Below are positions 1,340 to 62,946 of a stretch of DNA of 64,000 nt, one piece after another. Source of the stretch: Pedococcus bigeumensis (GTDB lineage: Bacteria > Actinomycetota > Actinomycetes > Actinomycetales > Dermatophilaceae); assembly GCF_006438965.1 (NCBI RefSeq), contig NZ_RCZM01000001.1:125097-189096 (forward strand), given 5' to 3'. The notes beneath the pieces were generated by a model. The model made no database searches, was not told where the DNA came from, and saw nothing but the letters and a program-made list of their open reading frames with translations. A program made the translations under genes and the position numbers. Position 1 is the stretch's first letter. Each line of letters begins with the position of its first letter.

Positions 1340-2485
1340 TCACCCGTCCGGGGTTGCCTGCTCGCTCGCGCCGCCGGTGCCGGCCGCCCGGGCGCTCGGA
1401 CCACCGCGTCCGGTGGTCCGCGGGTCGATGTACCCGCCCTCGGGCGGCACCATCTCCGCGCGTACGCCGAGCAGCCGGATGGGCCGGTCGTCGTCCAGCG
1501 CGGCGAGCAGGTCGAGCGCGGTCTGCGCGATGACCTCGGGGTCGAGCGTCGGCTCGCCCAGCTTGCGCACCCGGGTGGTCGTGAAGAACGGCGCGAACCG
1601 GACCTTGAGGAAGACCCGCTGGCAGGCGCGGTCCTCACGCCGGATGTCCTCGACGACCTGCTCGGCCAGGGTGTGGATGGCTGTGGCGATCTCGGACGGC
1701 TCCACGAGGTTGGTCTGGTAGGTCACCTCGCGGCCGTGGGCTCGGGCGACCCACGGGGTGTCGTCGACCGTCGCCGAGCTCACGCCCCTGCCGAGGCGGC
1801 CGTAGTGCGGTCCCATGGTCGGGCCGAACTCGGCCACCAGGGTCGCCTCGTCGGCATCGGCCAGGTCGCGCACCGTCTGGTAGCCGTGGGAGGCCAGCCG
1901 CTGCGAGATCTTCGAGCCCACCCCCCACAACGCGATGGTCGGCCGGTCGCCCATCACCTCGAACCAGTTGTCGCGGGTCAGCTCGAATACACCTCGGGGC
2001 TTGCCGAAATCGGTGGCGATCTTGGCCCGCACCTTGGTGTCGCCCACCCCGACCGAGCAGTGCAGGTCGGTGGCCTCGAGGACGGCGGCGCGGATCGACT
2101 GCGCGTAGCCCAGCGGGTCTTCGGTCGTCACACCCACGAAGGCCTCGTCCCAGCCCAGCACCTCGACGACCGCACCCGGCATACCTCGAAGCACCTCCAT
2201 GACCCGCGCCGAGGCCTCCTCGTAGACGGGGAAGTCGACCGGCAGCAGCACCGCCTCCGGGCACTTGCGCACGGCCACCTTGAGCGGCATCCCGGAACGG
2301 ACGCCGAACTCCCGCGCCTCGTAGGAGGCCGTCGAAACCACAGCCCGCTCGGTGGGGTCGCCGCGGCCTCCGACGATCAGTGGCACGCCCGCGAGCTCGG
2401 GGTGCCGCAGGATCTCGACTGCAGCGAGGAACTGGTCGAGGTCGACGTGCAGCACCCATGGCACGGCTGCGGCGGCTGGAGCCAT
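1340..2485 (-). CDS. dinB2: Y-family DNA polymerase, DinB2-like, with Leu steric gate
   Basis: Translesion polymerase of the DinB (Pol IV) family, 381 residues. The palm carboxylates are visible in HVDLDQFLAAVE and GWDEAFVGV, the fingers in VVSTASYEAREFGVRSGMP, and helix-hairpin-helix and little-finger regions follow. The residue aligned with the aromatic steric gate of E. coli DinB (second F of DCFFAAVE) is Leu, as in mycobacterial DinB2, which is known to accept ribonucleotides. No C-terminal clamp-binding QxSLF-type motif is seen; the tail is a Gly/Ala/Thr-rich extension. The second in-frame ATG (2485) is chosen because GCAGGA lies at a good distance from it, whereas the first (2494) abuts the same AGG. 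It lies 31 bp downstream of qor on the same strand. Confidence 0.88.
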   Translation of the reverse strand: MAPAAAAVPWVLHVDLDQFLAAVEILRHPELAGVPLIVGGRGDPTERAVVSTASYEAREFGVRSGMPLKVAVRKCPEAVLLPVDFPVYEEASARVMEVLRGMPGAVVEVLGWDEAFVGVTTEDPLGYAQSIRAAVLEATDLHCSVGVGDTKVRAKIATDFGKPRGVFELTRDNWFEVMGDRPTIALWGVGSKISQRLASHGYQTVRDLADADEATLVAEFGPTMGPHYGRLGRGVSSATVDDTPWVARAHGREVTYQTNLVEPSEIATAIHTLAEQVVEDIRREDRACQRVFLKVRFAPFFTTTRVRKLGEPTLDPEVIAQTALDLLAALDDDRPIRLLGVRAEMVPPEGGYIDPRTTGRGGPSARAAGTGGASEQATPDG

Positions 2486-2516
2486 GGGGTTCATCCTGCC
2501 GGGTGCCGGTGTCAGC

Positions 2517-3509
2517 TCAGGGGATCAGCAGCAGCTTGCCGGTCGTCCGGCGCGCCTCGAGGTCGTCGTAGGCCGTCGCCGCCTCGGTGAGCGGGTAGCG
2601 CCCGCCGATCTCGACCGCCAGCCGTCCGGCCGCGATGTCGCCCAGCACCGAGCCACCCCGCTCCAGCAGCTCCTCGCGGGTCGCGGTGTAGCTGCCGAGC
2701 GTCGGGCGCGTGAGGAAGAGCGAGCCGCTCGCGTTGAGCCGCTGGATGTCGAACGGTGGCACCTGGCCGCTCGCGCCACCGAAGAGCACCATCAGACCGC
2801 GAGGCCGCAGGGACGCCAGTGAGGCGTCGAAGGTTGCCTTGCCGACACCGTCGTAGGCGACGTCAACTCCGTTGCCACCATTGGCCGCCCGTACCTCTGC
2901 TGCGAGGTCGGCGGAGTCCCGGTAGTTGATCACGGCATCCGCCCTGAGACCGCGCGCGATCTCCAGCTTGTCCGCCGAACCGGCAGTCGCGACGACCGTG
3001 CCGCCCTTGGCCTTCACCATCTGCACGAGCAGCTGGCCCACCCCGCCGGCAGCCGCGTGCACGAGGGCGACCGTCCCAGGCCGCACGGCATACGTGGAGT
3101 TGACGAGGTAGTGCGCTGTCATGCCCTGGAGCATCGCGGCCGCCGCCACGTCGAGCTCGACCCCGTCGGGGACGGGCACGAGGGTGTCGGCTGCCCGGTT
3201 GACGACGGTGCCGCCCGCGCCGAGTCCGGCACCCCAGGCGACCCGGTCGCCGACCGCGACGTCCTCGACCCCTGCACCGACGGCGGTGACGGTTCCGGAA
3301 CCCTCGGAGCAGGAGACGAACGGCGTCGAGAGGGAATACACGCCCTGCCGCTGGTAGACGTCGATGAAGTTGACGCCGACGGCCGCGACCTCGACCTGGA
3401 CCTCGCCGTCACCCGGTGGCGCCAGATCGACGTCCTGGACCTCGAGGACCGAGGAGTCACCGTTGCGGGGGACGACGAGGGCGCGGGCGGTGGTCATGTC
3501 AGAGGCCAT
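2517..3509 (-). CDS. qor: Zinc-independent quinone oxidoreductase (MDR superfamily)
   Basis: NADPH-dependent quinone reductase-like enzyme of 330 residues. The N-terminal GroES-like fold carries AVGVNFIDVYQRQGVY, typical of QOR and lacking the catalytic and structural zinc ligands. The Rossmann domain has HAAAGGVGQLLVQMVKAKG, the AxxGGVG variant of the nucleotide-binding loop. It probably reduces quinones or enones in the cytosol. The start may be the first ATG (3509, GGAGG abutting) or the fifth codon (3497), and the sequence does not decide. It is the first gene of a likely two-gene unit with the DinB-type polymerase, which would be an oxidative or DNA damage pairing by inference only. Confidence 0.85.
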   Translation of the reverse strand: MASDMTTARALVVPRNGDSSVLEVQDVDLAPPGDGEVQVEVAAVGVNFIDVYQRQGVYSLSTPFVSCSEGSGTVTAVGAGVEDVAVGDRVAWGAGLGAGGTVVNRAADTLVPVPDGVELDVAAAAMLQGMTAHYLVNSTYAVRPGTVALVHAAAGGVGQLLVQMVKAKGGTVVATAGSADKLEIARGLRADAVINYRDSADLAAEVRAANGGNGVDVAYDGVGKATFDASLASLRPRGLMVLFGGASGQVPPFDIQRLNASGSLFLTRPTLGSYTATREELLERGGSVLGDIAAGRLAVEIGGRYPLTEAATAYDDLEARRTTGKLLLIP

Positions 3510-4775: not shown

Positions 4776-4857
4776 TTCGGCCACGTCCGAGCACCGATTC
4801 CCCCGTATGCCGCGGGGCCGCTTGCCGTCGCACCCTCGGTTCCGCGACGGTTGCGCC

Positions 4858-5610: not shown

Positions 5611-6977
5611 GCGTCGGAGGCCCAGTCGGCCGCGGTTCGCTGGAGCGACGGACTGCGGCCCTGATGGCAGCGGTCGTGACCATCGCGGTGGTCGTCGCCG
5701 GCCTGGTCTCCGTCGGACTGGTGCGCGGCGCGGCCCAGGACGAGGCGCGAAAAGCGTTGCGCAGCAAGGCGGATCTCGTGAGCGCGGTGCTCGAAGCCAG
5801 CCGACCCGTCGACATCACACCCGCGCTGCGGGTGGTCCGCCAGCAGGACACCCCGGTTGCCTGGGAGGGACCCGGCGGCCGGTTGGCCGGGGACGCGCTG
5901 GCCCGCACGGCATACACGCAGCTGCCCCAGGTGCAGCGGACCGTGAGCGGCTCCCACACCCTGCGCATCGACGGCCGGTCGGTGCTCGTCGAGGTGCGCC
6001 CGCTCTCCAACGGCGCGACCGTCGTGTTCGCGGAGCGGACGAGCCTGGCCGCCGGGCAGAGCCTGAGGTTCCTCAACCGGGTGCTGCTCGCCCTGGTGAT
6101 CGGGCTGGTCCTCGCGGTGCTGGCGTCGGTGCTCTTCGCGCGTCGGTTGGCCGCACCGCTGCGCAGCACCGCGGCTGCCGCACACCGCATGGCATCGGGT
6201 GAGCGATCGGTCCGGGTGGTGCCTGCGGGCCCGGCCGAGGTGGCCGAGACGGGGGAGTCGCTCAACGCGCTCGCCGAGGCCCTCGAACACAGTGAACGAC
6301 GGCAGCGCGAGTTCCTGCTGTCGGTGTCGCACGAGCTGCGGACGCCGCTCGGAGCCGTCAAGGGGTTCGCCGAGGGGCTGCAGGACGGCGTCATCACCGG
6401 CGACGCGGTGCCGGGCGCGGGACGCACCATCGTGGCCGAGTCGGCTCGGCTGGAGCGCCTGGTCGCCGACCTGCTCGACCTCGCCAGGCTGGGCGCTGAC
6501 GACTTCCGGTTCGACACCGTGGCGCTCGACCTGCGTGACGTCGTCGACCAGGCCGCCGAGGTGTGGGGTGAGCGATGTCGCCGTGAGGGCGTGCGGTTCG
6601 CGGTCGAACGCCCCCCGGCGGCCGTTCTCGTCCGCACCGACCCGGTGCGGGTGCGCCAGGTGATCGACGGCCTCGCCGAGAACGCGCTTCGAGTGACCGA
6701 GGCCGGTGCGCCGCTGGTCCTGGCCCTTCGAGCGGACAGCAGCCACGCCGTGCTTGAGGTGCGCGACGGAGGTCCGGGCCTGACCACCGACGACATGGCC
6801 GTGGCGTTCGAGCGGTCCGAGCTCTACCAGCGCTACCGCGGGATACGGCGGGTCGGCACCGGCCTCGGGCTGGCCCTCGTCAAGGCGCTCGTCGACGGGC
6901 TCGGTGGCAGCGTCTCTGTGCAGCCGGCGCCGGCCGAGGGCGGCACCTGCTTCCGGGTCGAGCTGCCGCTCACGTGA
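5607..6977 (+). CDS. Sensor histidine kinase with HAMP domain
   Basis: Membrane-bound kinase of 456 residues, partner of the preceding regulator. A first transmembrane helix lies at about 18-42, an extracytoplasmic sensor region of about 110 residues follows, and a second helix lies at about 155-178. Then come a HAMP linker (RRLAAPLRSTAAAAHRMASG), the HisKA box SVSHELRTPLGAVKGF with phosphoacceptor His at about residue 242, the N box (AENALR), G1 (DGGPGL), and G2 (GTGLGLALVKAL). The sensor region has no recognisable ligand domain. The ATG is within the stop of the regulator gene. It ends 20 bp before a convergent acetyltransferase gene. Confidence 0.92.
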   Translation: MSVGGPVGRGSLERRTAALMAAVVTIAVVVAGLVSVGLVRGAAQDEARKALRSKADLVSAVLEASRPVDITPALRVVRQQDTPVAWEGPGGRLAGDALARTAYTQLPQVQRTVSGSHTLRIDGRSVLVEVRPLSNGATVVFAERTSLAAGQSLRFLNRVLLALVIGLVLAVLASVLFARRLAAPLRSTAAAAHRMASGERSVRVVPAGPAEVAETGESLNALAEALEHSERRQREFLLSVSHELRTPLGAVKGFAEGLQDGVITGDAVPGAGRTIVAESARLERLVADLLDLARLGADDFRFDTVALDLRDVVDQAAEVWGERCRREGVRFAVERPPAAVLVRTDPVRVRQVIDGLAENALRVTEAGAPLVLALRADSSHAVLEVRDGGPGLTTDDMAVAFERSELYQRYRGIRRVGTGLGLALVKALVDGLGGSVSVQPAPAEGGTCFRVELPLT

Positions 6978-6996: not shown

Positions 6997-7566
6997 TCAG
7001 GCTCCGGTGGTGATCCAGTAGCGCCGCTTGCCGCCCAGCTCGCCCTCGAGCTCACCGCCGTTCGCCTCGATGGTCCGCGCGGACGCGACGTTGTCGAGGT
7101 CGCAGGTCACCAGCAGCCTGGGTATGCCGCGTGCAGCCGCCAGGGGCACCACCTGCCGCAGCGCGTCGCTGGCGAACCCGCGGCGCCGGGCGCGGGGCCG
7201 CACCGAGTAGCCCACGTGCCCACCGACCGTGGCGAGCATCGGGTGGTCGATGTGGTGCCGAAGCGAGATCGAGCCGACGAACTCGTCAACCCGGTCGGGG
7301 TCCTCCAGCCACCAGTAGGTGGCCGTGGTCCACCCTGGAGGCCTGGGGTTTCCCACCTCCGCGTCGCCGACGCGGTTGGCGACGAACCGGTCGAACTCGG
7401 CGCTGTCCTCCAGGCCTTCGCGGGTGAAGACCAGGCCGGGGAAGTCACCCTCAGCCGGCCAGTTGAGCACCCCGTCGTGGGCCGGCTCCCCGTTGGCCCG
7501 GAACTCGTCCACTGCGGCGAGGAAGGTCCAGTGGAACCGGGCGTGTGGCGTGGCGAGCAGCACCAT
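6997..7566 (-). CDS. GNAT-family N-acetyltransferase (paralogue A)
   Basis: A 189-residue acetyltransferase. The GNAT fold is shown by VGSISLRHHI, then the acetyl-CoA-binding segment GYSVRPRARRRGFASDALR (R/Q-x-x-G-x-G/A type), then LVTCDLDNVASARTIEANGGEL, which in the family precedes the last strands. The substrate is unknown. It is clearly homologous along its whole length to the gene two positions upstream (8399-8959): both share DEF near residue 20, an FTRxGL segment, EFxRFVAxRV, and the C-terminal RRYWI. Its ATG shares one base with the stop of the uracil-DNA glycosylase gene (TGATG), so it is translated as part of a coupled three-gene operon. Confidence 0.85.
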   Translation of the reverse strand: MVLLATPHARFHWTFLAAVDEFRANGEPAHDGVLNWPAEGDFPGLVFTREGLEDSAEFDRFVANRVGDAEVGNPRPPGWTTATYWWLEDPDRVDEFVGSISLRHHIDHPMLATVGGHVGYSVRPRARRRGFASDALRQVVPLAAARGIPRLLVTCDLDNVASARTIEANGGELEGELGGKRRYWITTGA

Positions 7567-8402
7567 CACGGCGCCAGTCGTAGTCGGGCGATCGCGGCGT
7601 CGAGCATCGCCTCGGTGAGCTTGCCGGTGAAGGTGTTCTGCTGGCTCACGTGGTAGCTCCCGACCAGCCGGACGGCGCGTCCGCCCGCCGTGGTTAGGAT
7701 CGCCTCCGCCGCGTGCCCGAACCGGGGTTTGGGCCGGGGCACCTCCCAGCCCAGCCGCCGCGCGCTGCCGAGCGTCGCGTCCCAGGCGATCGACCCCAGG
7801 GCGAGCATCGACCGCAACCCTGGCGCGGCGAGCTCGAGGTCGCGGTCCAACCAGTGCGCGCACGCCACCTTCTCCACAGTGGTCGGCTTGTTGGCCGGCG
7901 GCGCGCACCGCACCGCCGCGATGATCCGTATGCCGTGCAGCAGCAGCCCGTCGCCGCTCGCCCAGGACTGTGGCTGGCTGGCGTACCCGGCGCGGTGCAA
8001 CGCGGCATACAGCCAGTCGCCGGACCGGTCGCCGGTGAACATGCGCCCCGTGCGGTTGGTGCCGTTTGCGGCGGGCGCGAGACCCACGACGAGCACCTCT
8101 GCCTGGGGTTCGCCAAAGCCGGGTCCGGGTCTGCCCCAGTAGGGCTGGTCGGCGAAGGACGCCCGACGGCCCTGTGTCGCAACGGTTTCGCGCCACTCGA
8201 CCAGTCGCGGACAGGCGCGGCAGACCGAGATCCGGGCGTCGAGCTCGGCGACGTCGGGGGAGGTGCAGGCGAGGGCGTCGGTCTGCGAGGCGTTGCGGGC
8301 CACGGGCGTCGCGGCCGTCGCCGGGTCGCCCGGCCAACCGCTGCCCGGCGGCACCGGGGACTCGAACAGCTCGCCCGTGACAGGGTGCGGGTCGACGTTC
8401 AC
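7566..8402 (-). CDS. udgB: Uracil-DNA glycosylase, family 5 (UdgB-like)
   Basis: Base excision repair glycosylase of 278 residues. The first active-site motif, [19 protein letters not shown], has the Ala/Asn arrangement of family 5 UDGs rather than the GQDPYH of UNG. The C-terminal motif [14 protein letters not shown] supplies the His. An N-terminal Cys cluster (C-x2-C in SVCRACPRL, with upstream Cys) fits the iron-sulfur site of families 4/5. It would remove uracil, and in this family also hypoxanthine or other deaminated bases, from DNA. The GTG start at 8402 overlaps the stop of the upstream acetyltransferase by 4 nt (GTGA). Being sandwiched between two paralogous acetyltransferases is unusual. 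Confidence 0.88.
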
Positions 8403-9063: not shown

Positions 9064-11508
9064 ATGAGCACGCTCTTCGACGACCTGTTTCCAGCTGATC
9101 CGCCCCCTCCCGGCACCCGCCCGAGCGCTGCGGCTGCTCGGGCGACGGCCGTGGACGACCGAGGCGTTCCGACCTGGGCCCAGGCAGCCGCCGAGGGGCG
9201 CGGCCCCGACGAGGCGAGCAGCCGGCATACCGACCCGGAGACGCTGCTCGAGGGGCTGAACCCCCAGCAGCGTCAGGCGGTGCTGCACGAGGGCGGTCCG
9301 CTGCTGATCGTCGCGGGCGCGGGGTCGGGCAAGACCCGGGTGCTCACCAACCGGATCGCCTACCTGCTGGCCGCCCGTGGGGTGCAGCCCGGCCAGGTGC
9401 TGGCCATCACGTTCACCAACAAGGCCGCCGCCGAGATGCGCGAGCGGGTCGCCGCGCTGGTCGGCCCGCGGGCCAAGGCGATGTGGGTGATGACCTTCCA
9501 CTCGGCGTGCGTGCGGATCCTGCGCCGCGAGGCCGCTAAGGTCGGGCTCAAGACGACCTTCTCGATCTATGACGCCGCCGACAGCCAGCGCCTCATGGCG
9601 ATGGTGATGCGCGACCTCGACCTCGACCCCAAGCGCTACCCGCCCCGGTCGTTCAGCCATCAGGTCTCCAACCTCAAGAACGAGCTCGTCGACGAGGAGA
9701 CCTTCGCCTCCCAGGTCGGTGAGGGGACCCACCAGGAGCGGATGCTGGCCGAGGCCTACACCGGCTACCAGCGCCGGCTGCGGCAGGCCAACGCCCTCGA
9801 CTTCGACGACCTGATCATGACGACAGTCAACATCCTGCAGGCCTTCCCCGACGTCGCCGAGCACTACCGGCGGCGGTTCCGCCACGTGCTCGTCGACGAG
9901 TACCAGGACACCAACCACGCCCAGTACCAGCTCGTCCGCGAGCTCGTGGGCGGGGCCGCCGGCAGCGCGGGTATGCCGGTCGGTGACGGTCCGTCCGTCG
10001 AGGCGGCCGAGCTCGTGGTGGTCGGCGACGCCGACCAGTCGATCTATGCCTTCCGTGGCGCGACGATCCGCAACATCGTGGAGTTCGAGGAGGACTACCC
10101 GAACGCGCGGACCATCCTGCTCGAGCAGAACTACCGGTCGACGCAGACCATCCTGCAGGCGGCCAACTCGGTCATCGCCAAGAACCCCGAGCGACGCAAG
10201 AAGAACCTCTGGACCGACAGCGGCAGCGGTGCCGCGATCATCGGCTACGTCGGCGACAACGAGCACGACGAGGCGGCCTTCGTCGCCAAGACGATCGACG
10301 AGCTCGGCGACTCGGTGGGGGTCAAGCCCAAGGACGTCGCGGTGTTCTACCGCACCAACGCCCAGTCGCGTGCGCTCGAAGAGGTCTTCGTGCGAGTTGG
10401 CCTGCCCTACAAGGTGGTTGGCGGCACGCGGTTCTACGAGCGGCGCGAGGTCAAGGATGCGCTGGCCTACCTCCGGGTCATCTCCAACCCCACCGACACG
10501 GTCAACCTGCGCCGCATCCTCAACACGCCCAAGCGGGGGATCGGCGACCGGGCGGAGGCCTGCGTCGCTGCCCTCGCCGAGCGCGAGCGGATCCCGTTCA
10601 TCGCCGCCCTCGGCCGTCCCGAGGACGCCCCAGGCATCGCGACGCGCTCCGTCGCCGCGATCAAGGGCTTCACCGGGCTGCTCGAGCAGCTCGGCGCCAT
10701 CCACGCCGACGACGAGCAGGGCGTGGGGGCGCTGCTCGAGGCCGTGATCGAGAAGTCCGGCTACCTCGCCGAGCTGCGGGCCAGCCGTGACCCGCAGGAC
10801 GAGACCCGGGTCGAGAACCTCGCCGAGCTCGTCGCCGTGGCCCAGGAGTTCGACGAGACGCGGGCCCAGACCGGTGAGGTGGCCAGCCTGGAGGACTTCC
10901 TCGAGCAGGTCTCGCTGGTGGCCGACGCCGACGAGATCCCGGACGGCGAGGAGGCCGAGGACCTCGGTGTGGTCACCCTGATGACACTGCACACCGCCAA
11001 GGGGCTGGAGTTCCCGGTCGTGTTCCTCACCGGCATGGAGGACGGCACCTTCCCGCACCTGCGCGCCCTCGGCGACCCCAAGGAGCTCGAGGAGGAGCGC
11101 CGGCTCGCCTACGTCGGCATCACCCGGGCCCGCGAGCGGCTGCACCTGTCCCGCGCCGCCGTGCGGTCTGCCTGGGGTGCCCCGCAGTACAACCCGGCCA
11201 GCCGGTTCCTCGACGAGATCCCACCCGCGCTCGTCGAGTGGCAGCGGGCCGAGGCGGCGACGACCACGCGGCGCCCGGGCATGCCTGCCGTCGCGACGCT
11301 GGCCCAGCGGCCGGGCGTCCGCTCGCCCGGCAACCGACCCCTCATCTCGCTGCACGCCGGAGACAAGGTGACCCACGACAGCTATGGCATGGGCACCGTC
11401 GTCAAGACCGAGGGAGACGGGGAGAAGACGCAGGCGCACGTCGACTTCGGCGGCGAGACCGGGGTCAAGCGCTTCCTGCTGCGCTACGCGCCCCTCGAGA
11501 AGCTCTAG
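9064..11508 (+). CDS. pcrA: ATP-dependent DNA helicase PcrA/UvrD
   Basis: Superfamily 1 helicase of 814 residues for nucleotide excision repair and removal of RecA or stalled complexes. After a 60-residue low-complexity N-terminus, [23 protein letters not shown] opens the helicase with Walker A GAGSGKT. Motif II ([12 protein letters not shown]), motif III ([15 protein letters not shown]), motif IV (LEQNYRS) and motif VI ([12 protein letters not shown]) are all present. The last 55 residues ([20 protein letters not shown]) form the Tudor-like domain that contacts RNA polymerase. An actinobacterial insert of about 20 residues follows motif II. The ATG at 9064 is chosen over the one at 9007 because it directly precedes the conserved MSTLFDDLF start and has a TAGGCT hexamer 10 nt upstream. 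Confidence 0.95.
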
Positions 11509-11537
11509 GCACTTCCGCGCCACGCGGCATACCCGAA

Positions 11538-37875: not shown

Positions 37876-37876
37876 G

Positions 37877-45901: not shown

Positions 45902-46034
45902 GCTGTGCTTCCCCTTTGGTGGTGTGGTTTCACCCCTGCGACCACGAAGGTAGGTCTGGGCAGGATGGCGCGGCATCCGTGGGTGCACCCAACCTCGGGG
46001 TCGTGGCGACGCACGCGCTGCGGCGTGTATGCCG

Positions 46035-53602: not shown

Positions 53603-55081
53603 TCAGTCCTGCGTGGGGAGCGCCGGCCCCCGCACGGCACTCCTCAGCGGGTCGGCTCCGAGCATCGGCACCTCGCGCCAGCCGAGATGCACCGTCCCGT
53701 CGGTCCGGGTGCGGACCTGCATCGTGTGGGGGGTCTCGATGAGGCGGACGTCCGCGCTGAAGCAGCCGTCACCGTCCCAGCCGCCGGAGGCGACGACGGG
53801 CAGCTCGACGCCACCCACCGCAAGCGTCGACGGCTCCCACGTGCCGTCACCGACGTCGAGGGCCACCCGGGTGCCGTGGCAGTCCAGGACCATCTCGTAG
53901 TCCGCGCCGCCGGGCGCGAGGCTCATCGCGGCATACTCCGGTGGGAGCCGGCTGTCGTCGGCACGCACCCACCACCCGGTCTCCGGTCCGGGGGCCGAGG
54001 ACGACGGGGTGGGGACCGCGAGGGTGGCGATCCGCTCCTCAAGCGCGGCGTCGGCCAGCTCGTCCTCCCACTCGTCCTCATGACCGACGGCCGGCAGCAG
54101 GTGGTCCCAGACGAGGTCGAGGACGGCCTGCATGTCGAGGGTCTCGCTGGTGATGGTGATCGCCACGTCCTGGTCGGGGAGGACGATGGCGTACTGGCCG
54201 TAGGCGCCGTCCCCGCGGTAGCCGTGCCGGGCGCTCCAGAACGAGCAGCCATAGCCCTCGTGCCAGTCGGGGTTCGGGTCGGTCTCGCGGTTGGGCAGCC
54301 CGGTCGGCGTGGTGGCCGTGGTGACCCACTCGGGCGACAGGAGCTTCTCGCCGTCCCAGACGCCTCGGTCGAGGTGGAGCTGCGCCAGGGCGAGGATGGC
54401 GTCGCTGCCGACGTGGATGCCCGAGAACCCCAGCTCGCGGCCGGTCACCGTTCGGTGCCACGCCACGTCGCCCCCTCCCCGGGGGTCGAGCAGCGGCAGG
54501 ACCCGGTCACGCAGCAGGGACAGCACCGACGAGCCGGTGACTCCGCGCACGGCACCCGCGGCGAGGTAGGTGGCGACCTGGTTGTAGGCCCAGGCCGTCC
54601 CCGGCTCGTGCTCGGGCGGGGACGCGAGGATCGCGGCCAGCACGGGGTCGGTGTGGTCGCCCTCGCCGGGGCGCTCGTGGGCCGCCCGCGTGACGTCCTC
54701 GCCCCAGCCCTCCCCGTCGTGACCGGTCGCCATCGTGAGGCAGTGGCCGAGGGTCAGCCGCAGGTAGCGGTCCGGCACCTCGACTCCGGCAGGCAGGTCG
54801 CCGGGCGGCAGCAGGTCGAGCACCGGTTGGTCGAGCGAGAGCCGTCCCTCGTCGACGAGCAGCCCGACCGCGGTGGCGGTGAACGACTTGCTCAGCGAGT
54901 AGACCAGCTGGACGCGCTCGGGGGCGTAGGGCGCCCACCACCCGCGCGCGACGACGTGGCCGTGCCTCGCGATCAGGAGGCTGTGCGGGTCGTGACCGTC
55001 CGACTCGAGGGCGTCGATGAGGGCGAGGATGCCGAGGGCGTCGACGCCCTGGGCTGAGGGCGGGCTGGTGGGTAGCGGCAC
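53603..55081 (-). CDS. Serine beta-lactamase-like hydrolase
   Basis: A 492-residue class C beta-lactamase-fold hydrolase without a signal peptide. The SxxK motif is in YSLSKSFTATAVGLL, the YxN motif in WAYNQVATYLAAG, and a GDGAYGQYAIVLPDQDVAI segment follows near the KTG position. The last 130 residues (PPEYAAMSLAPGGADYEMVL) form a lipocalin-like or DUF3471-type C-terminal domain. It could be an esterase, a D-aminopeptidase or an amidase. The GTG at 55081 is a tentative start; no good ribosome site is seen. It follows the VOC gene by 8 bp on the same strand. Confidence 0.78.
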   Translation of the reverse strand: MPLPTSPPSAQGVDALGILALIDALESDGHDPHSLLIARHGHVVARGWWAPYAPERVQLVYSLSKSFTATAVGLLVDEGRLSLDQPVLDLLPPGDLPAGVEVPDRYLRLTLGHCLTMATGHDGEGWGEDVTRAAHERPGEGDHTDPVLAAILASPPEHEPGTAWAYNQVATYLAAGAVRGVTGSSVLSLLRDRVLPLLDPRGGGDVAWHRTVTGRELGFSGIHVGSDAILALAQLHLDRGVWDGEKLLSPEWVTTATTPTGLPNRETDPNPDWHEGYGCSFWSARHGYRGDGAYGQYAIVLPDQDVAITITSETLDMQAVLDLVWDHLLPAVGHEDEWEDELADAALEERIATLAVPTPSSSAPGPETGWWVRADDSRLPPEYAAMSLAPGGADYEMVLDCHGTRVALDVGDGTWEPSTLAVGGVELPVVASGGWDGDGCFSADVRLIETPHTMQVRTRTDGTVHLGWREVPMLGADPLRSAVRGPALPTQD

Positions 55082-55682: not shown

Positions 55683-56579
55683 TCAGTGCGGGAAGGAGGT
55701 CTCCGCCGGGCGCTCGAGCTCGTCGCGGTGGTTGCGGATCAGGTCGAGGTTGCGGTCGCGCAGGTGGTCGAAGCCCTGACCGATGTTGGAGCCGGGCGTC
55801 AGGGACGACAGTGCCGTGGCCGGGTCGAGCAGGGCGGATACCCAGCCCTCGTGGGAGGCGGCCTTGGCGGCGATGTGGGCGTTCGGCGTCACGATGTGGG
55901 AGTTGCCGAAGTAGAGCACCCCGGCCGGGTCGATGCCCGTGGCGTTGGCGCCGATGACGAACACGTGGTTGTCGTAGGCCCGCGCCCGCGAGGTCAGCTC
56001 CCAGATGTCGGCGGACCGCAGCAGCGCACTCGGCCGGCAGATGACCTCCGCGCCCTGCACCGCCTGGATGCGGGACAGCTCGGGGTAGTCCCCGTCGAAG
56101 CAGATGATCATGCCGATCTTGCCGAGGTCGGTGTCGCAGACTGTCACCGTGTCACCGGGCGTGACCCAGCCGCCGCCGTCGACGTGCTCGCTGCAGAACG
56201 GGTGCGTCTTGCGATAGACACCCAGGACCTCGCCGTCGCGGCCGATGAGCACCGACGAGTTGTAGATGACGCCCCGCTCCGGGCCACGCTCGTAGGTGCC
56301 CAGCACGGCATACACACCAAGGTCCCTGGCGACCTGCTGGACCGGTTCGGTGACGGGACCGGGGATGTCCGAGACGAGGTCCCACAGCTCCTCGACGGAG
56401 CAGTCGGGGGTGAACCCGGTCGTGGCGGACTCCGGTACCACCACGAGCTCGGCACCGGTGTCGTCGACGCACCGACGGATGAAGTCGACGCACTTGTCGA
56501 GGTTCTTGCGCACGGCCTCCGGTGACAGCGGTCCCGGCACCGGCGCCAGCTGGATGGCAGCTGCAGTGAATGCGCGCAT
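55683..56579 (-). CDS. Nitrilase-superfamily carbon-nitrogen hydrolase
   Basis: A 298-residue enzyme with the Glu-Lys-Cys triad: ELVVVPESATTGF (E), YRKTHPF (K) and IGMIICFDGDYPE (C). The superfamily cuts amides, nitriles and N-carbamoyl groups. As the last gene of the molybdenum hydroxylase operon (start overlaps the coxG stop by one base), and given hydantoinase and barbiturase genes nearby, a decarbamoylating role such as N-carbamoyl-amino-acid or ureido-acid hydrolysis is the best guess. It is not a true nitrilase by length or motif context. Confidence 0.85.
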   Translation of the reverse strand: MRAFTAAAIQLAPVPGPLSPEAVRKNLDKCVDFIRRCVDDTGAELVVVPESATTGFTPDCSVEELWDLVSDIPGPVTEPVQQVARDLGVYAVLGTYERGPERGVIYNSSVLIGRDGEVLGVYRKTHPFCSEHVDGGGWVTPGDTVTVCDTDLGKIGMIICFDGDYPELSRIQAVQGAEVICRPSALLRSADIWELTSRARAYDNHVFVIGANATGIDPAGVLYFGNSHIVTPNAHIAAKAASHEGWVSALLDPATALSSLTPGSNIGQGFDHLRDRNLDLIRNHRDELERPAETSFPH

Positions 56580-57193: not shown

Positions 57194-59649
57194 CGTGCCT
57201 CCTGGACAGGCGGAACAGGTGCGGAGCCGGGCGAGGTGGACGTATGCCGCGGGCGGGCGAGCGAGGGGATCTCACCGCGGGCGTGCCGCTGGCGCAGCTC
57301 CCACAGCTCGACCGGGGAGATCGGCATCGAGGTGATCGCGAACCCTTCGGCGTCGGAGATCGCGGAGGCGATGACGGCCGTGACCGGGATGCACCCGGCC
57401 TCGCCAGCACCCTTGATACCCAACGGGTTCAGCGGTGACGGAGTCTCGAGGTGGTCGGTCTCGATGTGCGGCACCTCGGACGCGTAGGGCATCAGGAAGT
57501 CCATGAAGCTGGCGTTGAGCAGCTGCCCCGACTCGTCGTAGACCATCCGTTCGTAGAGCGCGCCACCCACACCCTGGGCAACCCCGCCGTGCACCTGGCC
57601 CTCGACGATCATCGGGTTGATCATGTTGCCGCAGTCGTGGATGACGCAGTAGCGCAGGACGCGGATCTCCGCGGTCACCGGGTCGGTCTCGACGATCGCC
57701 GCGTGCATGCCGTTGGCGAAGGTCGCCTGGGTGGGGGAGTAGAAGTCCTTGCCCTCGAGACCGGGTTCGTCGTCGTCGGCGACAGGTGGCTTGTTCGGGT
57801 CATTGCTCCCGGCGAACTGGGTGGCCGCCTTGGCCGCGTCGTCGAAGGCGTAACGCAGCGGGTTGGACATCACCGAGACGGTGCCCAGCGACATCCGGGT
57901 GCCGGGTGCGCCCTTGACCTGCACGATGCCGTCGACGATCTCGAGGTCCTCGGCCGAGACCTCCAGCGCGTCCGCCGCGATGCGCAGCGCCTTGGCCCGG
58001 ACGTTGCGGGCAGCGAGGGCGATCGCGTTGCCGCTCATCACGGCGGCGCGCGAGGCGAACGTGCCCACGGCATAGGGCATCCGGCGGGTGTCGCCGGTGG
58101 TGACGAAGACGTCTCCGATCGGGACGCCCAGCTCCTGGGCCACGATCTGCGCGAACGACGTCTCGTGGCCCTGACCTTGGGAGGTGAGGCCGGTCGACAC
58201 GTTGACCCGCCCGCTCGTCTCGATCTGGATGTGGCCCCCTTCGTAGGGGCCGACACCGGTGCCCTCGACGTAGCAGCCGATGCCCAACCCGACCCGGCGG
58301 CCTTCGGCCTCGGCCTGCTCCCGGTAGGCCGCGAAGTCGTCCCAGCCCACGAGCGCCTTGAGCTTGGCCATCGAGGCCGGGAAGTCGCCCGAGTCGTACT
58401 TGAGCGGCCGGCCGTCCTGGAAGAGCAACCCGTGGTCGTAGGGCATCTCCTCGGGGAGGATGAAGTTGCGCGACCGCACCTCGGTCCGGTCGATGCCGAG
58501 GTACTCGGCGATGGCGTCCATGGTGCGTTCCATGGCGAAGCAGCCCTGCGGCCGTCCGGCGCCACGGTAGGGGGTCACGAGGACGGTGTTGGTGTAGAGC
58601 GACCAGAACTCACAGCGGTAGGCGCCGGGCTTGTAGGGCCCGAGCAGCTGGGTCGAGGTGATGATCGGGACGATGATGCCGTAGGGCGTGTAGGCGCCGT
58701 TGTCGTGCCAGAACTTCACGTCGAGCGCGAGGATGCGGCCCTGCTCGTCGAAGCCCACCTTGATCTCCTGGAGCTGTCCGCGCTCGTGGGCGCTGGAGAT
58801 GAAGTGCTCCCGGCGATCCTCGGTCCACTTCACCTCCTGCTCGAGAAGCCTTGCAGCCCAAGGGATGAGGACCTCTTCGGGCCACGGGTGGTTGATCTTG
58901 ACGCCGAAGCCGCCCCCCACGTCGGGCGCGATGCACTCGACCTTGGCTAGGGGCAGGTCGAGCTTGGCAGCCACCGCGGCGCGCACGCCCGTCGAGGTCT
59001 GGGTGGAGGAGAAGATGCGCAGCTCGCCCTTGTCCGTGTCCCAGCGGGCGAGGACGCCCTTGCCCTCCATCGGCATGCAGGCGCTGCGTTCGATATCGAG
59101 CTCGAGCTCGAGCGTGTGGGGTGCCGCGGCTATCGCGGCGTCGACGTCGCCGACCTCCTGGAGCATGCGGCAGGCGACGTTGCCGGGCACGTCCTCGTGG
59201 ACCAGGGCCGAGCCGTCGCGGGCGTTCGCGATCCCGACGACGGGGGTGAGCAGCTCGTAGTCGACCCTGATCCGCTGACAGACGTCCTCGGCGATGTAGC
59301 GGTCGCGGGCGACGACCATGACGATCGCCTCGCCGACGTAGTTCACCTCGTCGCGGGCGAGGGCGAACTGGGTGCGGCCGTGGGTGAGGGTGGGGTGCGG
59401 GATGAGCAGGGGGAGGGGTTCGCCGACCTTGCCCGGCAGGTCCTCGTGGGTCCAGATGCCGACCAGCCCGTCGACCTCGAAGGCGTCGGTGACGTCGATG
59501 TCGACGATCCGGGCATGCGCATGGGGGCTGCGGACGAAGGCTGCGGCCAGGGCGCGGTGGCCCATGTCGTCGAGGTAGCGTCCCCCACCCGTCACCAGGC
59601 GCGGGTCCTCCTTGCGCTGGATCGGCGCGCCGAACATCGAGGTCGTCAC
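57190..59649 (-). CDS. Molybdenum hydroxylase large subunit (form II CoxL-like)
   Basis: An 819-residue molybdopterin-binding subunit of the xanthine oxidase family. It begins RKEDPRLVTGGGRYLDDMG, binds cofactor through VGGGFGVK, and the catalytic Glu is in IKGAGEAGC. The active-site loop reads PYRGAGRP, the form II type, not AYXCSFR of true CO dehydrogenase, so CO oxidation is unlikely and hydroxylation of an N-heterocycle (purine, pyrimidine, nicotinate-like) is expected. The GTG at 59649 overlaps the FeS subunit stop by 4 nt (GTGA). Confidence 0.9.
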   Translation of the reverse strand: MTTSMFGAPIQRKEDPRLVTGGGRYLDDMGHRALAAAFVRSPHAHARIVDIDVTDAFEVDGLVGIWTHEDLPGKVGEPLPLLIPHPTLTHGRTQFALARDEVNYVGEAIVMVVARDRYIAEDVCQRIRVDYELLTPVVGIANARDGSALVHEDVPGNVACRMLQEVGDVDAAIAAAPHTLELELDIERSACMPMEGKGVLARWDTDKGELRIFSSTQTSTGVRAAVAAKLDLPLAKVECIAPDVGGGFGVKINHPWPEEVLIPWAARLLEQEVKWTEDRREHFISSAHERGQLQEIKVGFDEQGRILALDVKFWHDNGAYTPYGIIVPIITSTQLLGPYKPGAYRCEFWSLYTNTVLVTPYRGAGRPQGCFAMERTMDAIAEYLGIDRTEVRSRNFILPEEMPYDHGLLFQDGRPLKYDSGDFPASMAKLKALVGWDDFAAYREQAEAEGRRVGLGIGCYVEGTGVGPYEGGHIQIETSGRVNVSTGLTSQGQGHETSFAQIVAQELGVPIGDVFVTTGDTRRMPYAVGTFASRAAVMSGNAIALAARNVRAKALRIAADALEVSAEDLEIVDGIVQVKGAPGTRMSLGTVSVMSNPLRYAFDDAAKAATQFAGSNDPNKPPVADDDEPGLEGKDFYSPTQATFANGMHAAIVETDPVTAEIRVLRYCVIHDCGNMINPMIVEGQVHGGVAQGVGGALYERMVYDESGQLLNASFMDFLMPYASEVPHIETDHLETPSPLNPLGIKGAGEAGCIPVTAVIASAISDAEGFAITSMPISPVELWELRQRHARGEIPSLARPRHTSTSPGSAPVPPVQEAR

Positions 59650-60197: not shown

Positions 60198-61096
60198 GCG
60201 GCTGGCCCTTCCGTGTCGCGCGCGACCTGATGCGCGGCGACGGATCTCCTGGCGGCCTGGGCGAGGGTCAGTCGGGCGAGCTCGACGGCAAGCATGGCGC
60301 GGTACTCGGCGGTTGCGTGGATGTCGCCCTCCGGTTCGATCGCGGCGTGGACCAGGTCGGCAGCCGCGGACCAGTCGACCGATTCGGGCTCCTGACCCGC
60401 GAAGACCTCGGTCACATCCAGGCTGCGGGGCACGTCGGTGACCGAGACGAAGGACAGCCGCGCGTCAGCGATGAGGCCGTCGGAGGTGCGGACCGCCGCT
60501 GCGACTCCCGCCATGGCGTAGTCGCCGTGCCGGCGGGCGCGCTCCATGAACGAGGTACCGGTGCCGGCAGCGAACCGGCGGAACCGCACCGCGACGGCCA
60601 GCTCCTCGGGGGTCAGGGACGTCTCCAGGGCGCCCTCGAAGAAGTCTGCGACGGCGATCTCGCGAGATGCCGAGGCGGACACGGCCTCCACGACGCCGTC
60701 GGTCAGGGCGAGCATCGCCGGCATCTCACCGGCGGCGTCCGCGTGGGCGATCGACCCCACCGTGGTGCCGCGGTTCCGGATGACGGGATGGGCCACGTTG
60801 ACGAGCGCCTGGCGCAGCAGCGGCAACGCGGCATACGCCTCGTCGTGGTGCTCCAGCTGCGCGTGGCGTACCAACGCACCCACCCGCACCTCGGTGTCGC
60901 TCACGGTCACGTCCGCAAGGCCTGCGACCTGGTTGATGTCCACGAGGTGGGCCGGGGAGGCGAGGCGCATGTTGAGGATGGGGATCAGGCTCTGCCCGCC
61001 CGCGAGGACCTTGCCGTCGTGCCCGACCTCGGCCAGCACCGCGACGGCGTCCGCGACGCTGCGGGGCGCATGGTGCACGAACGGCGCGGGCTTCAC
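60194..61096 (-). CDS. Molybdenum hydroxylase FAD subunit (CoxM-like)
   Basis: A 300-residue FAD-binding subunit, first gene of the five-gene operon. FAD contacts are in KVLAGGQSLIPILNMRLA and RNRGTTVGSIAHADAAGEMP. The C-terminal CO_deh_flav_C domain includes FMERARRHGDYAMAGVAAAV. It would hand electrons to NAD, quinone or oxygen. The ATG at 61096 starts the canonical MKPAPFVHHAP. The upstream 97 bp hold a terminator of the permease gene and little room for a complex promoter. Confidence 0.92.
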   Translation of the reverse strand: MKPAPFVHHAPRSVADAVAVLAEVGHDGKVLAGGQSLIPILNMRLASPAHLVDINQVAGLADVTVSDTEVRVGALVRHAQLEHHDEAYAALPLLRQALVNVAHPVIRNRGTTVGSIAHADAAGEMPAMLALTDGVVEAVSASASREIAVADFFEGALETSLTPEELAVAVRFRRFAAGTGTSFMERARRHGDYAMAGVAAAVRTSDGLIADARLSFVSVTDVPRSLDVTEVFAGQEPESVDWSAAADLVHAAIEPEGDIHATAEYRAMLAVELARLTLAQAARRSVAAHQVARDTEGPAA

Positions 61097-61193: not shown

Positions 61194-62657
61194 TCAGCGT
61201 CGGGTGTCGCCCTGGTCCAGGTCGTCGACCCCGTCACTGTGGCCGTAGGAGTCGTGCCCACCGACGGTGAGCAGCGCGCCGTCGGCTCGGGCTCGGAGCT
61301 CGGCCGGCGCGAGTGCCTTGGCGAGGTGGTAGGCGGCGACGGCCACGATGGTGCCGAGCGCGATGCCGCTGAGCGAGAAGCTGTCGGAGAACTTCAGCGT
61401 CACGTTGCCGATGCCGATGACGATGCCGGCCGCGACGGGCACCAGGTTGATCGGGTTGGCGAAGTCGACACCGTTCTCCTTCCAGATCTTGGCTCCGAGG
61501 AGGCCGATCATGCCGTAGAGCACCACCGTGATCCCGCCCAGGACACCACCAGGGGTCGACGCCACGAGGGCCCCGAACTTGGGCGAGAAGCCGAACAGGA
61601 TCGCCACGATGGCGGCGACGTAGTAGGCGGCCGTGGAGTAGACCCTCGTGGCGGCCATCACCCCGATGTTCTCGGCATAGGTCGTGGTCGGTGAGCCGCC
61701 CACGGCGGAGGCGAGCATGGTTCCGAAGCCGTCGGCCGCGATCGCCCGGCCCATGTAGGGGTCGAGGTCGGTCTTGGTCATCTCGGCGACGGCCTTGACG
61801 TGGCCGGTGTTCTCCGCGATGAGCGCGATGACGGCGGGGACGACGAGCAGGATGGCGGCCATCGAGAACGAGGGGGCGTGCCAGCCGACGACCTCCTTGC
61901 CCGCGACCATCTCGGTGTGCGGCGGGAAGCCGATCCAGGAGGCGTCCTTGATTCCCTGGAAGTTGGTGCGGAAGTGCGTGGTGATCTTGCCGGCACCGGC
62001 GTCGTAGGAGGTGATCTGCCCGAAGCCCTTGTCGAAGATCCAGGACACGACGTAGCCGAAGATCAGCGCCAGGAAGATCGCGATGCGGCCGACGAAGCCC
62101 TTGAAGGCGACCGCGCACACGATCGTGAAGGTCATCACCAGCAGGGCGACCCACTGGTCCTGCGGCCAGTAGATGTTGGCGACCACGGGCGCGAGGTTGA
62201 AGCCGATGAGCATGACGACGGCGCCGGTCACGACGGGCGGCAGCACCTTGTGCAGGACGCCCGAGCCGAGGAAGTGGATGAGCACACCTACGAGGGCGAG
62301 CACGAGGCCGGCGATGAGGATCGCACCGGTGACGGTGGCCGAGGTGGCGCCGGTCTGGTGGCGGATGGCGATCACGGCTCCGACGAACGAGGCGGACGTC
62401 CCGAGATAGCTGGGCACCTTGCCCTTGACGATGAGCAGGAAGCAGATCGTCGCGATACCGCTCATCATGATCGCGAGCTGGGCGTTGAGGCCCATGATCA
62501 GGGGGAAGACGAACGTGGCCCCGAACATCGCCACGACGTGCTGGGCGCCGAGCCCGATGGTCTTGCCCCACGACAGCCGCTCGTCGGGAGCGACGACGTC
62601 GTCCGGGCCCATGGTGCGGCCGTCTCCGTGCAGTTTCCAACCCAGGCCCAGTGACAT
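61194..62657 (-). CDS. NCS2-family uracil/xanthine permease
   Basis: A 487-residue membrane transporter with about 14 segments. GLGAQHVVAMFGATFVFPLI is the substrate-site TM1 motif, and the TM8-TM10 signature GGSPTTTYAENIGVMAATRV has the Glu of the UraA type. The C-terminus is hydrophilic (DSYGHSDGVDDLDQGD). UraA/RutG-like members import uracil, thymine or barbiturate; xanthine is also possible. The ATG at 62657 has AGAAGGAG 8 nt upstream and is preferred to a longer frame. A PucR gene lies upstream on the same strand. Confidence 0.92.
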   Translation of the reverse strand: MSLGLGWKLHGDGRTMGPDDVVAPDERLSWGKTIGLGAQHVVAMFGATFVFPLIMGLNAQLAIMMSGIATICFLLIVKGKVPSYLGTSASFVGAVIAIRHQTGATSATVTGAILIAGLVLALVGVLIHFLGSGVLHKVLPPVVTGAVVMLIGFNLAPVVANIYWPQDQWVALLVMTFTIVCAVAFKGFVGRIAIFLALIFGYVVSWIFDKGFGQITSYDAGAGKITTHFRTNFQGIKDASWIGFPPHTEMVAGKEVVGWHAPSFSMAAILLVVPAVIALIAENTGHVKAVAEMTKTDLDPYMGRAIAADGFGTMLASAVGGSPTTTYAENIGVMAATRVYSTAAYYVAAIVAILFGFSPKFGALVASTPGGVLGGITVVLYGMIGLLGAKIWKENGVDFANPINLVPVAAGIVIGIGNVTLKFSDSFSLSGIALGTIVAVAAYHLAKALAPAELRARADGALLTVGGHDSYGHSDGVDDLDQGDTRR

Positions 62658-62946
62658 GCGGACTCCTTCTCCACCGGCGCGGCCCACCGAGATGGCGTGG
62701 CTCACAGCCCCTTGCGGGATAGGCGAAAACTAGCGGCCGGACCGGCCGGTGCATTGGGCAATTGTTGCTATCGAGCCCGGAGCGGCTTTCGGCAGAGTAT
62801 GCGGAGTGGCGCGCTGGCATTCTGCGCCCGGCAGGAGTCGAATGGGCACTGCCGCGTCCCTCCCGCCAGAGGGCGCGGCACCTTCGTGCCCCACGGCACC
62901 TTCCTGCCCTGCGGCACCTTCCGTGCCCCGCGGCATACCCTCGGAA
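62658..62946. other. 289-bp spacer between PucR and permease genes
   Basis: No gene is seen. It contains an inverted repeat GCAA-TTG-TTGC (62758-62768), the GC palindrome GGCCGGACCGGCC (about 62736-62748), a relatively AT-rich piece gcgaaaactag, and a tandem repeat at 62876-62930. The palindromes could be PucR operator candidates for the permease. Confidence 0.45.
62876..62930. repeat. Three tandem 18-19 bp units
   Basis: Units starting CGGCACCTTC at 62876, 62894 and 62912 (each continuing -TGCC-), followed by a fourth start, CGGCATACC, at 62931. The array therefore ends in a CGGCATAC copy. No protein reading is convincing. Confidence 0.7.

Follow-up and report, generated by a model that had tools for sequence, protein, structure and literature searches.

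The window, which is the whole 64-kb stretch of DNA analysed, contains 40 copies of the octamer CGGCATAC, 23 on the forward strand and 17 on the reverse strand, spanning positions 2177 to 62938. The sequence-only reading had arrived at the same number, and the excess is even larger than it claimed; 100 dinucleotide shuffles of the window gave a mean of 1.00 copies and a maximum of 5. The additional 5' C that it described is present on all 40 GGCATAC heptamers. Seven of the 40 copies are intergenic, in a window with about 7% non-coding DNA (according to our own gene caller), and the remainder occupy several reading frames, in agreement with the earlier description of copies in both coding and non-coding DNA. 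The contexts of the four sites it quoted (Arg-His-Thr, Gly-Met-Pro, Tyr-Ala and the sucC-sucD spacer) were all correct, although two of their four coordinates were one base off (9223 and 25211 are correct). The copies of CGGCATAC are listed below with position, strand and placement.

2177..2184, +, in gene, Met-Pro frame
3086..3093, +, in gene, Tyr-Ala frame
4805..4812, -, in gene, Met-Pro frame
5908..5915, +, in gene, Ala-Tyr frame
7122..7129, -, in gene, Gly-Ile frame
7928..7935, -, in gene, Gly-Ile frame
8003..8010, +, in gene, Tyr-Ala frame
9223..9230, +, in gene, Arg-His-Thr frame
9971..9978, -, in gene, Gly-Met-Pro frame
11525..11532, +, intergenic, 16 bases beyond gene end
12788..12795, -, in gene, Ala-Tyr frame
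16587..16594, +, in gene, Tyr-Ala frame
17944..17951, -, in gene, Ala-Tyr frame; identical octamer in relative L087
18622..18629, +, intergenic
21821..21828, +, in gene, Gly-Met-Pro frame
25211..25218, +, in sucC-sucD spacer, sucD ATG 2 bases downstream; identical octamer in L087 and L097
26178..26185, -, intergenic, after sucD; identical octamer in L103
28834..28841, -, in gene, Tyr-Ala frame; identical octamer in L087 and L088
30942..30949, +, in gene, Ala-Tyr frame; aligned site identical in 11 of 22 relatives, CGGCGTAC in 1
31372..31379, -, in gene, Tyr-Ala frame; identical octamer in L087 and L097
32953..32960, -, in gene, Tyr-Ala frame
34263..34270, +, in gene, Ala-Tyr frame
38329..38336, +, in gene, Tyr-Ala frame
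40247..40254, +, in gene, Tyr-Ala frame
41126..41133, -, intergenic
41502..41509, -, in gene, Ala-Tyr frame
43887..43894, +, in gene, Ala-Tyr frame
46027..46034, -, intergenic, abutting gene end
47048..47055, +, in gene, Tyr-Ala frame
47251..47258, +, in gene, Tyr-Ala frame
47441..47448, -, in gene, Ala-Tyr frame
48729..48736, +, in gene, Tyr-Ala frame
49596..49603, -, in gene, Ala-Tyr frame
51321..51328, -, in gene, Ala-Tyr frame
51829..51836, +, in gene, Tyr-Ala frame
53929..53936, +, in gene, Tyr-Ala frame
56306..56313, +, in gene, Tyr-Ala frame
57242..57249, -, in gene, Arg-His-Thr frame
60829..60836, +, in gene, Tyr-Ala frame
62931..62938, +, intergenic

Abundance, spacing and hairpins

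Across the whole 4.22 Mb genome (G000) there are 2,551 copies of CGGCATAC (1287 forward, 1264 reverse), or one per 1.66 kb, compared with 74 (39 forward, 35 reverse) for the reversed-pattern control in the same genome. In 361 kb of G000 it is the top octamer by order-3 Markov z-score, with 181 copies observed and 10.0 expected, an expectation that is itself raised by the motif. The excess proposed from the window is upheld by both of these counts. T is under-represented on either side of the word: among 165 copies in 264 kb of G000 it stands at -1 in 6 and at +1 in 8, and among 306 copies in genome G008 in 26 and 14, respectively, compared with a base frequency of 14.7%. Copies are denser in intergenic than in coding DNA in G000 (1.36 vs 0.56 per kb) and in G089 (1.57 vs 0.58 per kb), and about equally dense in G164, a carrier from another genus that shows no enrichment. 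Intergenic copies exceed the composition expectation in all 12 carriers tested, in G096 by one copy only.

The absence of a clear strand bias, as described earlier, holds for the strand totals but conceals a hidden order, in that each strand is evenly filled separately. Totals are equal across 110 carrier genomes (standard deviation of z 0.77), and 20 stretches around the single contig of G008 hold 152 forward and 154 reverse copies with a running difference of -2 to 8; no chromosome-scale skew was detected in these stretches, the position of the origin not being fixed. Even spacing per strand is seen in G000, G008 and G089, which represent two genera. In genus g1, same-strand pairs closer than 1 kb number 54 where 157 are expected, whereas opposite-strand pairs are at expectation, and this strand-specific spacing is repeated in G089, where both strands combined look random (CV 1.00). 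Even spacing was not found in G164, nor was it found per strand for the G-form (CGGCGTAC) in G099, G025 and G094, and when stretches from eight carriers, of which seven lie outside the source genus, were pooled, there were 56 same-strand pairs below 1 kb vs 67 expected, which is little exclusion.

Inverted pairs of CGGCATAC occur as predicted hairpins after genes, and one arrangement is preferred. The pattern GTATGCCG-N3..30-CGGCATAC is found 96 times in G000, where the densities alone would give about 11. All but two of the 110 carriers have it, whereas it occurs in a single one of 65 non-carriers. Close pairs in 699 kb from the source genus show the hairpin arrangement 12 times and the opposite one 4 times; ten of the 12 are intergenic, 6 to 103 bases beyond a gene end, and four example pairs have predicted stems of -34.9 to -43.5 kcal/mol.

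Distribution, conservation and candidate genes

By the thresholds applied, 110 of 186 genomes of the family (Intrasporangiaceae) are carriers of CGGCATAC, with a median excess of 11-fold, and 65 (about one third) are non-carriers by the cut-off; a sample of 184 genomes covering 19 further families of the same order contained no carriers. Terrabacter tumescens, a cultured carrier, has 14 copies in 20.9 kb. The sharpest contrasts in presence of the word within a genus are given by G018 in g4, G094 in g33 and G124 in g42. In two lineages a different word seems to be in use, CGGCGTAC in g35 (4.9 times the shuffle; intergenic copies 10 and 9) and CGAAGGGGG in g27. Genomes G012 and G025 probably also use CGGCGTAC (3.2 and 3.4 times the shuffle), which in G160 is at expectation (1.0). 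The reversed-pattern control generally exaggerates this second word, and in a phylum-wide set of 256 genomes its ratio to the reversed pattern rarely reaches 5, with a few genomes at up to about 6 and G569 at 10. A dialect switch within genus g33, represented by G094, was considered and dropped, since CGGCGTAC reaches only 1.7 times the synonymous shuffle there and has no intergenic copy; the excess is therefore probably codon usage, and G094 is a plain non-carrier. In genus g18, CGGCATAC is extended on its 5' side by about 12 bases.

A comparison of orthologous positions, as advised by the sequence-only reading, found CGGCATAC kept in 58% of the ordered comparisons (628 of 1,074), while permuted octamers were kept in 27% (33,969 of 124,830); copies are conserved but also turn over between relatives. 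Where relatives are without the word, the aligned octamers are CGGCGTAC (53), CTGCATAC (29), CGGCCTAC (29), CGCCATAC (19) and others. Among the few stretches examined with recently acquired DNA in mind, the three small contigs C2-C4 (36 kb in total) are poor in the word, with two copies, and the four genes checked on them include a transposase and two members of a restriction-modification island; L178 holds one copy, and its two checked genes are not of a mobile type.

None of ComEC, T2SSE, PilM or ComEA tracks CGGCATAC in the family genomes and loci tested. ComEC occurs in 180 of 186 family genomes, T2SSE-family ATPases in 185, and PDDEXK_1 (the kind of nuclease present in AdnAB and RecB) in all 186, carriers or not; being near universal, they show no association with carrier status. 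PilM, which marks type IVa pili, is rare, with matches in 7 of the 186. ComEA adjoins ComEC in G000, and a ComEA homologue adjoins ComEC at all 12 loci tested (4 of 4 in carriers, 8 of 8 in non-carriers). RecC (PF04257) gave no match in G000, which is 99.9% complete, nor in 9 of 10 other genomes of that genus; matches in 89 of the 186 family genomes indicate that the search works. Transformation of Micrococcus luteus is described as involving Flp/Tad pili together with ComEA and ComEC (PMC6370729, PMC8467076), which, like the ComEA-ComEC pair of G000 and the T2SSE-family ATPases, speaks for the uptake reading set out below.

Interpretation and comparison with known systems

Of the three roles put forward by the sequence-only reading, a DNA uptake signal fits best, considering density, spread in the family, conservation, hairpins, lineage-specific words and lack of skew. 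We place at about one half the probability that CGGCATAC, with T disfavoured on either side, is an uptake-type self-DNA tag of family members, maintained through biased uptake together with homologous recombination. In its anatomy the word resembles the uptake sequences known from Neisseriaceae and Pasteurellaceae more than it does Chi or methylation sites. If so, these bacteria would be naturally transformable, and word-bearing DNA would be preferred by some protein of the cell surface or the translocation machinery, with a Tad pilin and ComEA as candidates; word-bearing alleles would therefore enter and replace alleles without the word, a form of molecular drive. About one copy per strand per 3 kb might suffice, which would lead to even spacing, and reading of the signal would depend on the strand or on a fixed polarity. 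On the other side of the balance, the open-licence literature yielded no report of natural transformation in this family and no receptor was found, the ComEC/ComEA machinery does not split carriers from non-carriers and PilM is rare, and neither G164 nor the eight-carrier pool behaves as the uptake reading would have it.

Because copies are spaced per strand, the recombination role retains some share of the probability, and the main rival, although an unlikely one, is a polar Chi-like signal: a helicase-nuclease (AdnAB, as RecBCD is missing in G000) would meet the word on one strand at a DNA end and switch to recombination, so that each strand needs its own copies, each serving one direction. 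The deficit of close same-strand pairs in g1, repeated in G089, is what such polarity would give, and Chi words differ among lineages. With no RecC in G000, and none in nine of ten congeners, CGGCATAC is rejected as a RecBCD Chi there, and PDDEXK_1 is present regardless of carrier status. Published Chi sites show a chromosome-scale strand bias, toward the leading strand, which CGGCATAC lacks; E. coli Chi, measured likewise over 250 kb, is unevenly spaced (CV 0.89 and 1.30), and we know of no Chi system in which hairpins after genes are a feature.

Even spacing and orthologous conservation could also reflect binding by a chromosome-organising or housekeeping protein (a nucleoid protein, condensin loader, or factor for repair or replication) that depends on regularly distributed sites, and according to PMC1939737, whose author disagrees, Karlin explained the even spacing of uptake sequences likewise. 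This is less probable still, as CGGCATAC is no palindrome, a protein binding double-stranded DNA would hardly account for strand-specific exclusion, and a word that is missing from 65 family genomes and replaced by others in sister lineages would be odd for a housekeeping need. A restriction-methylation target, the remaining role originally proposed, is unlikely on general grounds, such sites not being expected at an 11-fold median excess over 110 genomes. The product of a methyltransferase or mutational hotspot, for example by deamination of methylated cytosine (GTACGCCG to GTATGCCG), is very improbable. In its favour, CGGCGTAC is CGGCATAC changed by one transition at CpG, and it stands at 0.0 to 0.5 of the shuffle in 10 of 12 carriers (0.7 and 0.8 in the other two); against it, the octamers aligned where relatives do not have the word are too varied, and a hotspot would not conserve all eight bases, nor give even spacing or two-armed intergenic hairpins. 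Finally, the preference for Ala-Tyr and Tyr-Ala codon pairs, which was named from the start as a possible source of the excess and to which 206 Tyr-Ala and 117 Ala-Tyr frames among 388 coding copies (659 kb) would seem to point, is excluded, since coding copies are at 10.7 to 28.8 times the synonymous-codon shuffles in all 12 carriers tested (the shuffles yielding 3-9% of the count), the word occupies all six frames, TAT is 11% of Tyr codons overall but 45% before Ala (G000), and intergenic DNA is as rich as coding DNA (G164) or richer (G000, G089).

To return to the uptake reading, a more far-reaching form of it is put forward only tentatively: a self-recognition signal read on single-stranded DNA and polar on each strand, so that either strand maintains an evenly spaced set of its own with about one copy per 3 kb, operating without type IVa pili, and with the word swapped wholesale between sister lineages (CGGCATAC, CGGCGTAC, CGAAGGGGG). 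To our knowledge, uptake sequences are known only from two proteobacterial families, and this would be the first uptake-type signal that we know of outside the Proteobacteria. Our searches, which covered open-licence papers only, turned up no such signal in Actinobacteria, and an uptake-type tag in Intrasporangiaceae would be new for the group. It would mean that uptake signals arose independently in a large Gram-positive family whose pilus is of another kind, and it would make natural transformation likely in these bacteria. The origin of such tags, by biased uptake alone or through a role in recombination, would become testable here, because the strands should behave differently under the two hypotheses and CGGCATAC is spaced in a strand-specific way.

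Among known systems, HIP1 of cyanobacteria is likewise a highly abundant octamer across a whole group but is palindromic, whereas CGGCATAC is non-palindromic and behaves strand by strand. Chi (RecBCD or AddAB) is also a short non-palindromic word, and the strand-specific spacing of CGGCATAC suggests a similar polarity, but CGGCATAC is denser, evenly spaced and free of chromosome-scale skew. The USS of Pasteurellaceae, with 1,471 copies in H. influenzae (PMC1939737), is closer in its density, and even spacing and an extended flanking motif are reported for it (PMC1939737, PMC2346458, PMC1852404), the latter recalling the extension in g18. Its sequence is unrelated, and uptake by H. influenzae is reportedly independent of USS orientation (PMC1939737), which sits uneasily with an uptake role for a word spaced by strand. 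The DUS of Neisseriaceae differs in that CGGCATAC is an 8 bp core, evenly spaced per strand and known here from sequence alone, in Gram-positive Actinobacteria mostly without PilM and with no ComP identified. The likenesses to DUS are these: copies are numbered in the thousands (about 1,900 in Neisseria; PMC3630211), hairpins of inverted pairs after genes with one preferred arrangement are published for the Neisseria signal, as for that of Pasteurellaceae (PMC1852404), and related species are described as having variant words (dialects), sometimes two words in one genome, with some relatives having none (PMC3630211).

The octamer as a DNA-level signal

The sequence-only reading had claimed 40 copies of the octamer CGGCATAC in the window, and 40 were found, where dinucleotide shuffles averaged 1.0 and never exceeded 5; its statement that every GGCATAC heptamer carries an extra 5' C also held (40/40). 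The whole genome (G000; 4,223,823 bases in 13 contigs) contains 1,287 forward and 1,264 reverse copies, versus 39 and 35 for the same pattern read backwards (the reversed control). The comparison with a Markov model proposed by that reading was made on 361 kb of this genome, window included; 181 copies were found against 10.0 expected, and CGGCATAC had the largest order-3 Markov z of all octamers.

CGGCATAC acts at the level of DNA. Codon choice had been discounted as an explanation, and rightly so, as shuffling synonymous codons within genes yields far fewer coding copies: relative to the shuffle mean, G000 had 17.7 times as many, its congener G008 21.0 times, the carriers (genomes rich in the word) G089 and G164 12.4 and 11.5 times, and eight further carriers 10.7 to 28.8 times (40 kb each; G002, G019, G049, G051, G096, G113, G118 and G125). 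All gene calls are simple codon-model predictions made here, and are approximate rather than annotation. In G000, TAT makes up 11% of Tyr codons overall and 45% of those ahead of Ala, and GCA 7% of Ala codons overall and 17% of those ahead of TAC. Copies are denser between genes than within them in G000 (1.36 versus 0.56 per kb) and G089 (1.57 versus 0.58), an enrichment absent in G164 (0.67 versus 0.76). T is rare on both flanks of the word (6/165 and 8/165 in G000, 26/306 and 14/306 in G008; base frequency 14.7%), and the flanking Ts that do occur are mostly in the Tyr-Ala frame (22/32 at -1 and 18/23 at +1, in 659 kb).

Distribution, conservation and sister words

The window's genome is of the Intrasporangiaceae type, the closest sucD genes found being those of Phycicoccus sp. 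Soil802 (95% identity) and Soil748 (93%). The eleven genomes of its genus have 625 to 3,986 copies and exceed the reversed control 5.7- to 44-fold. With carriers defined by a minimum of 300 copies and a ratio to the reversed control of 2.4 or more, a cut-off chosen after the table was seen, and with genomes that are partly draft, 110 of 186 family genomes are carriers, spread over 31 genera (median ratio 11.3, range 2.5 to 70), 65 are non-carriers with at most 120 copies, and 11 are intermediate. The reversed control is also high in some carriers (genera g4 and g18), which is put down to a putative effect of the word flanks. A sample of 198 genomes from the order included 184 from 19 other families, and none of these reached 300 copies; the highest count, 167, went with a control of 184, and in one genome the word was absent. 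Non-carriers also occur within carrier genera (G018 in g4, G094 in g33, G124 in g42). Taken together, the family table and the order sample indicate a trait of one family that is missing from part of it, at times within a genus.

Conservation at orthologous positions, raised by the sequence-only reading, was also found. Ten congeneric genomes were compared in the comEC region, at 77 to 83% identity to G000, and CGGCATAC was kept in 628 of 1,074 ordered, non-independent comparisons (58%), versus 33,969 of 124,830 (27%) for permuted octamers of the same letters. Where it was missing, the aligned octamers were CGGCGTAC (53 cases), CTGCATAC (29), CGGCCTAC (29), CGCCATAC (19) and many rarer ones, a variety that argues against a single mutational precursor of the copies. 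Of 22 relatives aligned at the window copy at 30942, 11 have the identical octamer and one has CGGCGTAC. Between sucC and sucD, the copy at 25211-25218 stops 2 bases ahead of the sucD start codon and overlies the usual position of a ribosome-binding site.

The few stretches examined suggest that acquired DNA may be poor in CGGCATAC. The small contigs C2, C3 and C4 of G000 have 2 copies in 36 kb, where about 22 would be expected at the genome rate; four genes were examined on C2 and C3, one for a transposase, one for a sigma factor and a pair making up a Type ISP restriction-modification island. Low numbers (4, 4 and 6 copies) were likewise counted in the opening 20 kb of contigs C6, C7 and C8. 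A 20-kb stretch of G008 (L178) has 1 copy, the other 19 stretches having 11 to 21, and the two genes examined there specify an HD-domain regulator and a HipA-type kinase. The island lies on contig C3 (L012, 14 kb), is word-free, and encodes a Type ISP methylase together with a helicase that has a PLD-like nuclease domain.

Other words occur in sister lineages. CGGCGTAC, one transition from CGGCATAC, is enriched in genus g35: in G099 and G100 it is found at 4.9 times synonymous shuffles, with 10 and 9 intergenic copies versus 1.5 and 0.5 expected. It is weaker in G012 and G025 (3.2 and 3.4 times), and in 12 CGGCATAC carriers it is at 0.0 to 0.5 of expectation in ten, and at 0.7 and 0.8 in two. 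G094 was rejected as a CGGCGTAC lineage (1.7 times shuffles, zero intergenic copies); two of its stretches (L061 and L062) show an excess of the palindrome-like CTGGGCCA / CTGGCCCA, 14 each versus 1.6 in 40 kb. Genus g27 is without CGGCATAC and CGGCGTAC, and an unrelated nonamer, CGAAGGGGG, is dispersed on both strands: 40 kb of G062 (L059, L060) has 15 copies, and 41 kb of 11 g27 loci (among L191-L206) gathered via one nuclease family has 18, the reversed control being 0; nine loci of other genera had 0 copies in 33 kb. Within G062 genes it occurs 11 times, versus a codon-shuffle mean of 1.75 and a maximum of 5. Outside the family, a 20.9-kb stretch of Nocardioides limicola (L155) carries CGGCGTAC 15 times, on both strands, with a reversed control of 0. 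Raw counts of CGGCGTAC in genome G569 are 2,247 versus 220.

Per-strand spacing and hairpins

In the genus of G000 and in G089, each strand taken by itself carries CGGCATAC at even intervals. In contiguous stretches of 100 and 164 kb of G000, the coefficient of variation (CV) of spacing was 0.51 and 0.58 for plus-strand copies and 0.53 and 0.63 for minus-strand copies, versus about 0.97 for random placement (P <= 0.001 in 4/4 tests), and 74% and 69% of adjacent copies in the two stretches switched strand. Across the genus (264 kb of G000 and 360 kb of G008, excluding L178 and L179 of the latter), 157 same-strand pairs closer than 1 kb would be expected and 54 were seen; opposite-strand pairs equalled expectation. 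G089, of another genus, repeats the pattern (0.63 and 0.73 per strand, 1.00 with strands combined). Even per-strand spacing was not found in G164 (1.17 and 1.06), in pooled 20-kb stretches of eight carriers, seven of them outside the genus (56 same-strand pairs within 1 kb versus 67 expected), for CGGCGTAC in G099, G025 and G094, or for the 59 Chi sites in 250 kb of E. coli MG1655 (0.89 and 1.30). Across 110 carriers, forward and reverse totals are closer than fair coin flips would predict (sd of z 0.77). No chromosome-scale strand bias was seen in G008, sampled as 20 stretches around its single contig, with 152 plus and 154 minus copies and a running difference between -2 and 8.

Copies also pair as potential hairpins. 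GTATGCCG followed by CGGCATAC after 3 to 30 bases occurs 96 times in G000 (about 11 expected from densities) and 207 times in G059, and such pairs are present in 108/110 carriers, 6/11 intermediates and 1/65 non-carriers, the reversed pattern giving at most 2. In 699 kb from the genus, adjacent copies separated by under 70 bases took this arrangement 12 times and the opposite one 4 times; ten of the 12 are intergenic by the gene calls, 6 to 103 bases beyond a gene end, and two fall within called genes. Four example pairs have predicted stems of -34.9 to -43.5 kcal/mol. In genus g18 (G051, 17 copies; L073 and L074), the word lies within a longer conserved sequence that extends it 5' by about 12 bases, GRGCSRGCYCAG, and it forms longer palindromic pairs whose spacers are short.

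Candidate role

At roughly even odds (a probability of about 0.5), CGGCATAC may be an uptake-type signal, since its copies number in the thousands, are in excess between genes, form post-gene hairpins in one arrangement and show no chromosome-scale strand bias, and since the words are lineage-specific. G000 encodes ComEA adjoining ComEC, as well as four T2SSE-family matches taken as Tad-type ATPases, and a gene set of the ComEA/ComEC/Tad kind is described as serving transformation in Micrococcus luteus (PMC6370729, PMC8467076). Some 8 kb from comEC, units of the GGGTCAGTCCG type are repeated in a short tandem array (contig C12, about 89789-89925; L208). Counting against uptake, ComEC, ComEA and T2SSE genes are also present in non-carriers, and no receptor was identified by gene association across five Pfam families and ComEA at 12 loci. 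Uptake in H. influenzae is reported to be indifferent to orientation (PMC1939737), so strand-specific spacing would be unexpected of such a signal. That spacing is what a polar, Chi-like recombination signal would account for; such a role nevertheless leaves both the hairpins and the missing strand bias unexplained, RecC is absent from G000, and we regard it as unlikely. Joining the two, CGGCATAC could be sensed on single-stranded transforming DNA.

The uptake-type reading has parallels in known systems. Terminators of Neisseria and Pasteurellaceae are described as often consisting of paired uptake signals, with one arrangement favoured (PMC1852404), and published accounts of uptake sequences include dialects, genomes of mixed type and relatives that have no word at all (PMC3630211).
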